This document shows, piece after piece, positions 3,265 to 3,897 of a stretch of 28,871 nucleotides of DNA. The DNA is from a virus, in the IMG/VR virus record IMGVR_UViG_3300008450_000333, positions 1 to 28,871 of that record, one strand, 5' to 3'. Below the pieces are notes generated by a model, which saw only the letters and a program-made list of their open reading frames with translations, made no database searches and had not been told where the DNA came from. Positions within the stretch are counted from its first letter, which is position 1. The number at the start of each line of letters is the position of its first letter. The position numbers and the translations under genes were made by a program.

Positions 3265-3288
3265 TTAAATATTTTAAATTAAATTTTT
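3265..3288 (+). repeat. left arm of inverted repeat around the exonuclease gene
   Basis: The reverse complement of 3265-3287 is identical over 23 bp to 3875-3897, which overlaps the end of the gene at 3320-3883. The arms consist almost only of A and T, so slippage of composition matters, but a perfect 23-bp match placed symmetrically around one gene and just inside sites A and B is unlikely to be chance. Confidence 0.65.
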
Positions 3289-3319
3289 GCGAGGGAATTA
3301 ATAACTAAAAACTAAAAAG

Positions 3320-3883
3320 ATGAAACTATTTTTTGACACAGAATTTACAGGGTTGCACAAAAACACAACCTTAGTTAGCATTGGAATAATTGCTGAAAAC
3401 GGAAAAACATTTTATGCGGAACTTACCGACTATGACCAAAAACAAATTGATGAATGGTTAGAAAAAAATGTGATTGCAAACCTAACCATTGATAAAGACA
3501 GCTTAGGTAAGTTTGGAGATGATGCGAATTGGCTTGTGAGAGGCGATACGGCAAGCATAAAATATTATTTAGAGGAATGGCTAAAGCAATTTGAAAAGGT
3601 TGTGTTTTGGAGTGATTGCCTTAGTTACGATTGGGTTTTGTTTAATCACATTTTTGGACACGCTTTTAGCATACCTGAAAATGTTTACTACATACCATTT
3701 GATATATGCACACTATTTGAACACAAAGGAATTGATGCAGATATAAGCAGAGAAAGGTATGCTGAAATAACCAACGACAAAGGACAAAACCAAACATCAG
3801 AATATATGATGAAGCACAATGCTTTGTATGATGCTAAGGTGATTAAACTTTGTTACGAAAAACTGTGCGGTGGGAAAATTTAA
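3320..3883 (+). CDS. DEDDh 3'-5' exonuclease, Rv2179c-like
   Basis: The 187-residue product begins [10 protein letters not shown], giving D6 and E8 of the DEDD exonuclease motif [17 protein letters not shown] follows as in the Rv2179c-like 3'-5' exoribonuclease family. SYDWVLF supplies D104, and HNALYDAKV supplies H166 and D171, completing a DEDDh active site. Members degrade RNA or single-stranded DNA from the 3' end using two metal ions. The gene stands alone on an accessory island, bounded by inverted repeats and attC-like sites, so it may be a mobile cassette. An A-rich leader with repeated ACTAAAAA precedes the ATG. Substrate is unknown. Confidence 0.82.
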
Positions 3884-3897
3884 TTTAAAATATTTAA
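3875..3897 (+). repeat. right arm of inverted repeat around the exonuclease gene
   Basis: This 23-bp stretch is the exact reverse complement of 3265-3287. The exonuclease stop codon TAA (3881-3883) lies within it. Site B begins 7 nt further on. Confidence 0.65.

Follow-up and report, generated by a model that had tools for sequence, protein, structure and literature searches.

Why a single phage gene should be enclosed by a long and perfect inverted repeat is the question raised by this locus, which lies in a 28,871-nucleotide stretch of DNA (the window) from an IMG/VR virus record with terminase genes and genes for RecT and a DnaA-C-terminal protein. The original prediction offered two readings, a mobile single-gene element or arms that pair in RNA around the whole message. 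We compared the repeat and its surroundings with related arrays in viral contigs and cultured phages.

The repeat, its gene and the mobile segment

The two arms, 3265–3287 (TTAAATATTTTAAATTAAATTTT) and 3875–3897, are exact reverse complements over 23 bp as originally noted; they rank first among the inverted repeats found in the window and extend to 26-nt arms at 96% (3262–3287/3875–3900). A chance origin in A/T-rich DNA was ruled out, since third-order Markov copies of the window (n = 300) contained no perfect inverted repeat longer than 19 bp. A single gene lies between the arms, an ORF of 187 aa (3320–3883, plus strand) matching the Rv2179c-like 3'-5' exoribonuclease family (Pfam PF16473, E 3.7e-12). 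This agrees with the DEDDh exonuclease predicted to be enclosed alone, and its TAA stop codon (3881–3883) does fall within the right arm.

The arms were also placed correctly, just inside two attC-like sites, A (3162–3234) and B (3905–4031), both of which fold as DNA stem-loops between TAAC and GTTA. Site A is of the same stem type as sites in contigs L048, L052 and L059, and site B leads to the next cassette. The cassette is bounded by an outer pair of complementary 8-mers, R' (GTTATGTT, 3231–3238) and R'' (AACATAAC, 3901–3908), which are exact reverse complements. Between R' and the left arm lies a 26-nt insert with GTGCG motifs that ends in the spacer CAG (3239–3264), a leader conserved before different genes in class 1 cassettes, the class to which the window cassette belongs. 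A G-rich motif stands immediately inside each arm (TGCGAGGG, 3288–3295, on the left; GTGCGGTGGG, 3865–3874, on the right), and the right arm is followed by a TTG spacer and R'' (3898–3908). All of these features are on the plus strand.

Two further cassettes follow on the same strand. The neighbour (GTTACCAC..GTGGTAAC, 4028–4795) has its sole long ORF (4054–4830) on the minus strand, contrary to the usual polarity. Beyond attC-like site C (4792–4840), with its loop TCGTTTTAATG, the third (GTTAGCTG..CAGCTAAC, 4837–5536) carries ORF 4891–5514. In such inter-cassette stem-loops the paired stems are often variable and the loop is conserved (window 4798–4843; contig L003 2752–2802, 3181–3238 and 5035–5080); CTAACGG-N-TCGTTTTAATG was matched in 113 stretches of viral contigs. 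No Rfam family matched positions 2400–6000 of the window.

An otherwise unrelated 44-kb viral contig, L003, is 95% identical to the window over 3222–3909 only, with an additional 84-nt leader match elsewhere. The 95% match begins at GTTATG in the left stem-loop and ends at CATAACG in the right; in the L003 copy both arms are perfect and both flanking stem-loops are replaced. On this comparison the common segment is a mobile one-gene cassette. A third contig (L026) has the same leader and left arm followed by a different gene, and other cassettes carry matched arms of their own in the same architecture. The idea of a mobile single-gene element thus holds as regards mobility between attC-like sites, but the unit is larger than 3265–3897. 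By analogy with the Freya and P12002 phages described below, exchange at AAC^G (3165/3166 and 3908/3909) implies that the moved unit is most likely 3166–3908, comprising stem-loop A, R', leader, gene and R'', with an attC polarity opposite to that of the gene; the L003 homology ends at 3909. The arms themselves are an internal, cassette-specific feature, neither the ends of the mobile unit nor recombination sites.

Absence of the arms in close homologs with the same gene neighbours had been named as the outcome that would point to chance. They are missing only in distant, non-cassette homologs (exonuclease genes of other phages, L004–L022, outside arrays, show no such repeat), and the single cassette homolog retains both. 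A close syntenic relative of the window phage, in which an empty site could have been sought as originally suggested, was not found. DNA similarity searches of plasmids and cultured phages gave no matching cassette, and in one scan of genome contigs exonuclease homologs came from Firmicutes only.

Cassettes are not invariably accompanied by their stem-loops. In the pairs window/L003, L042/L059 and L061/L114 the stem-loops were not retained, so a further exchange process must also act, in which either the leader recombines homologously or the other strand is the one recombined. L061 and L114 share, at 98% identity, a cassette of 461 bp whose flanking stem-loops both differ, showing that stems are exchanged independently of the gene.

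Matched arms across phage cassettes

The final set comprised 82 cassettes, with 63 arm sequences, 21 outer 8-mers and 58 cargo clusters. Their layout is always R' (GTTANNNN)-CNG-arm-gene-arm'-TTG-R'' (N'N'N'N'TAAC), usually with GNGCGNNGG immediately inside each arm; written more fully it reads GTTANNNN-(T)CNG-arm-GNGCGNNGG-gene-GTGCGNNGG-arm'-TTG-N'N'N'N'TAAC. Arms are 9–23 nt long and 95% A+T, and 75 pairs are perfect. Only 7 mismatches occur in 1305 pairs, three of them G.T, and when arms are mispaired as a control 1.6% match. The outer 8-mers at the two ends of a cassette co-vary. For the majority of the 82, the CNG spacer faces TTG, giving a G.T on the sense strand.

The matching of arms also emerges from samples that were not selected on arms. 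Among cassettes picked by the outer complementary 8-mer alone, 41 of 176 have arms of at least 12 nt, against about 0.4% of mispaired controls; with the right-end motif added to the 8-mer the figures are 35 of 48 and 3.1%. An 8-mer match is expected by chance in 2.3%. Loci found by the leader motif have arms of 22–23 bp, of several sequences, around many different genes, and an unrestricted scan of 1.5 Mb returned many perfect inverted repeats of 16–23 bp in the same context. Between the homologous cassettes of L042 and L059, which are 92% alike, there is a compensatory change on both arms and one position has turned into a G.T pair. Arm families are conserved with differing cargo.

The classes differ in how the arms are joined to the R boxes. 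In classes 1–3 the right arm lies exactly 3 nt from the recombination box; on the left, class 1 has 26–29 nt inserted before the arm, and in class b 35–41 unpaired nt (about 40) separate box and arm. Class 3 is without the G motif. A short class of 210–431 bp (L111, L102, L161, L160, L069, L126) has GTTATATT-TAG or GTTAGGTT-T(A/T)G and arms of 13–15 nt followed by AC(A/C)..., again without the G motif. The arms of class-b cassettes (L103, L027, L094, L147, L122, L114) overlap with coding sequence; the flank upstream has a KLKLEHET-like reading, and TLFGNEM is a frequent ending of the cargo.

The longest ORF runs in the sense direction in 78 of the 82 cassettes, and type-a cassettes, which were selected on arms, have one polarity throughout. 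In most cassettes no more than about 35 nt separate the left arm from the start codon, and the right arm is near or over the stop codon. Many cassettes, several in Freya phages included, have arms shorter than 6 nt, which means that arms are not needed for mobility. A search for empty cassettes, consisting of an arm palindrome without a gene, gave five short candidates, none convincing.

Recombinase genes and cassette gain and loss in cultured phages

The cassettes sit in integron-like arrays with stem-loops (TAACG..TGTTA) between them, and several cargo genes are DNA methyltransferase-like. Eight of the 27 array-bearing records encode a tyrosine recombinase of about 266–298 aa; no PF00589 recombinase was detected in the window record (28.9 kb) or in the L003 contig (44 kb). 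In all eight phages a cassette end (R'') lies 19–67 nt upstream of the recombinase gene, towards which the cargo genes point. Its complementary 8-mer lies upstream within the DNA examined in seven of them; for G003, the eighth, the end belongs to the cassette of L030. In most of the eight an A/T-rich stretch such as TATATTATATA follows the cassette end, before the recombinase gene. Among 15 contigs chosen by another window gene, PF00589 was found in two, in longer frames (402 and 415 aa). The best NCBIfam model of the phage recombinases is NF040815 (XerA/integron integrase), at 172–212 bits and below its cut-off of 220; the integron integrase model TIGR02249 gives 141–184 bits against a cut-off of 265, and its positions ~181–238 are skipped in the genome search. 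PDB relatives of the L444 recombinase are XerA/XerC-like proteins (4a8e, E 5.5e-31), IntI4 and XerD. We infer from the cultured relatives that the hosts of the contigs are Bacteroidota.

Direct comparison is offered by Freya_1, 2, 5, 8 and 10, Polaribacter phage isolates from the same host and study (PMC8776804; our records L446, L447, L450, L451 and L452, accessions MT732472, MT732463, MT732464, MT732467 and MT732470). They are ~100% identical in the compared stretches and differ in the array between gene 66 and the integrase: relative to Freya_1, which has nothing extra, Freya_2 has 842 bp, Freya_5 a further 902 bp and Freya_10 a total of 4942 bp, of which a 902-bp segment is missing from Freya_8. 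One site is thus empty in Freya_1 and filled in the other four. The indel junctions share 3–11 nt, always including AAC, and adjoin an intact integrase gene. The genomes span 44.0–48.9 kb, and the paper describing them mentions neither cassettes nor integrons (PMC8776804). The Freya enzyme might be an ordinary prophage integrase alone, and it may also integrate the phage, but the adjoining array varies at AAC^.

In Danklef_1 and Danklef_5 (L456 and L457; MT732458 and MT732462) the arrays are identical over 7,903 bp and only a 132-nt integrase remnant is present (41360–41491 and 42351–42482, respectively). Danklef_5 has an extra methyltransferase gene (10–945), situated elsewhere. A methyltransferase cassette with arms of 16 bp and the stem upstream of it have moved as one between P12002S and P12002L. 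Two attC sites of the latter, a Polaribacter phage, were assayed with IntI1 in a published study, and one of them recombined (PMC9892861).

One-gene cassettes with complementary ends and separated by stem-loops therefore recur in unrelated phages, and the Freya genome comparison shows their gain and loss at AAC^ upstream of a XerA/IntI-like recombinase gene.

Possible roles of the arms and relation to integrons

From these sequences, the system is most likely a phage-borne integron variant in which the recombinase is without the IntI-specific insert and the genes face the recombinase. We consider it reasonably probable that the 23-bp repeat is part of the cassette ends in such an array and that its arms make the recombination hairpin longer in the free cassette; here we infer the phage recombinase as mover, the existence of a circle and the role of the arms. 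The recombinase would excise the cassette as a circle (3166–3908 in the window), which could be inserted at attI, the site before the recombinase gene, or at another stem-loop (attC). Circularisation would join the right arm and R'', through stem-loop A, to R' and the left arm, and the whole would fold into one long hairpin on the gene-sense strand; with this polarity, that strand would correspond to the bottom strand of attC. Within the array the gene would keep the two arms apart, and in the free cassette they would lengthen the hairpin and so favour reinsertion. The circle junction is predicted to fold as a single hairpin of −41.4 kcal/mol, compared with −28.3 (site A) and −20.9 (site B) for equal lengths in the array; this stronger fold probably favours a role of the arms in folding of the free cassette. 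That 63 arm sequences are different yet internally matched would follow if arm sequence is free as long as its two sides match. Counted against such a role are the left bulges of class b and class 1, where the arm is not a direct extension of the R box, and against a recombinase-driven process the two contigs, window and L003, without a PF00589 recombinase.

The other original reading, a panhandle in which the arms pair the 5' and 3' untranslated ends of the transcript, protecting the message or controlling its translation, and the cassette moves by its R boxes, is unlikely in our assessment but has real points in its favour. In the predicted RNA fold of 3231–3908, minimum-free-energy and centroid structures alike enclose the entire cassette by 8 + 27 bp (z −4.4), the arms lie close to start and stop codons, the CNG:UUG spacer permits G-U pairing, and class-b arms track the gene and not the R box. 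The promoter −7 region of Bacteroidetes is TAnnTTTG. The left arms resemble it, so that transcripts may begin within the left arm or beyond it; moreover, wobble pairs are scarce in the arms, and the exact 3-nt distance of the right arm from the recombination box would be superfluous for an RNA role. An origin without selection, by template switching in the hairpin of a circular or single-stranded cassette that rewrites one flank from the other, seems to us equally improbable. It would suit arms that consist of A and T alone, hardly ever contain a mismatch, differ from cassette to cassette and for the most part adjoin the R boxes on the outside, as well as the compensatory change in L059, but not the sharp and regular arm borders (CNG outside, GNGCGNNGG inside), the kept rather than corrected G/A asymmetry of the spacers, the distance of class-b arms from the hairpin base, or the persistence of arm families with different cargo.

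Homologous recombination at repeated stem-loop and promoter linkers could also shuffle genes without a site-specific recombinase. PeSLs are mobile regulatory cassettes of T4-type phages, in which a stem-loop and a promoter-like linker lie between single accessory genes. The phage arrays likewise have such linkers before different genes, stem-plus-leader blocks of ~140 bp recur in this position, and the window, Freya and Danklef phages encode RecT. The arrays differ from PeSLs in their site-exact AAC^ insertions beside a recombinase gene and in complementary ends for each gene; the very short identity at the Freya junctions, the co-variation of the outer 8-mers, the recombinase after the last cassette in eight of eight phages and the unchanged Danklef array, with RecT and an integrase remnant, make mosaicism of this kind a rather improbable account. 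Flipping of the gene at the arms by an invertase would explain a perfect inverted repeat around one gene, and some of the phages do have tyrosine recombinases. We regard it as very improbable given that gene and G motif keep a constant orientation to the asymmetric spacers, CNG on the left and TTG on the right, and given the excess of sense ORFs and arms that differ among cassettes and so lack a common core site for an invertase. We rejected the inverton since the second orientation was not observed and polarity is constant in both the 82-cassette and type-a sets. A transposon or IS with terminal inverted repeats was likewise rejected, as the arms are not common to the elements (63 sequences), lie inside the moved segment and accompany no target duplication beyond AAC.

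We return to the integron variant. Its likeness to integron cassettes and CALINs, phage ones included (Qi et al. 2023, PMC9892861), lies in single-gene cassettes, folded TAAC/GTTA sites, complementary R boxes and insertion beside a recombinase gene; phage P12002L is common to that study and ours. The window, with sites A, B and C and no nearby integrase, has the two or more attC-like sites that define a CALIN. An attI position beside the recombinase gene is seen in the relatives (8/8, and the empty and filled Freya site) and not in the window, and excision or insertion at a fixed R-box point is seen by genome comparison, in the AAC^ junctions of Freya and P12002. There are also differences. 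The phage recombinases score below the IntI cut-off and are without the IntI-specific insert, cassette genes face the recombinase whereas those of integrons are oriented away from intI, and the phage core is GTTANNNN instead of GTTRRRY. Set against the attC pattern RYYYAAC/GTTRRRY, the stem-loops and TAAC/GTTA cores are present and the bases after GTTA are often unlike RRRY. A/T arms of up to 23 bp and G-rich inner motifs are additional.

The attC of class 1 integrons (e.g. aadA7) has the layout R''-spacer-L''-loop-L'-R' with an unpaired G. The phage stem-loops share this layout and the unpaired G, but the cassettes of class 1 integrons are not known to have arm pairs and have the opposite gene polarity. 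XerA resolves chromosome dimers at dif. XerA-type enzymes (NF040815; PDB 4a8e, 5hxy) are the closest models of the phage recombinases, whose genes, in contrast, follow a cassette array.

Bacteroidetes are reported to lack complete integrons almost entirely (PMC9024848), and the number of phages known to carry parts of integrons is modest (PMC9892861). In the open-access literature that we searched, an integron-like machine in this form seems undescribed, and a description elsewhere is possible. We suggest, tentatively and a little short of an even call, that Bacteroidota phages own an integron class with a XerA-like recombinase without the IntI insert, an attI, one-gene arrays of reversed polarity, and private matched A/T arms that would make the circle one long hairpin, a self-recognition signal that other integrons are not known to have. 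The phages appear to run their own cassette system, whose gains and losses can be tested directly in the near-identical cultured isolates Freya_1 to Freya_10, and the matched arms bear on how genes become cassettes and on the bias of excision versus insertion.
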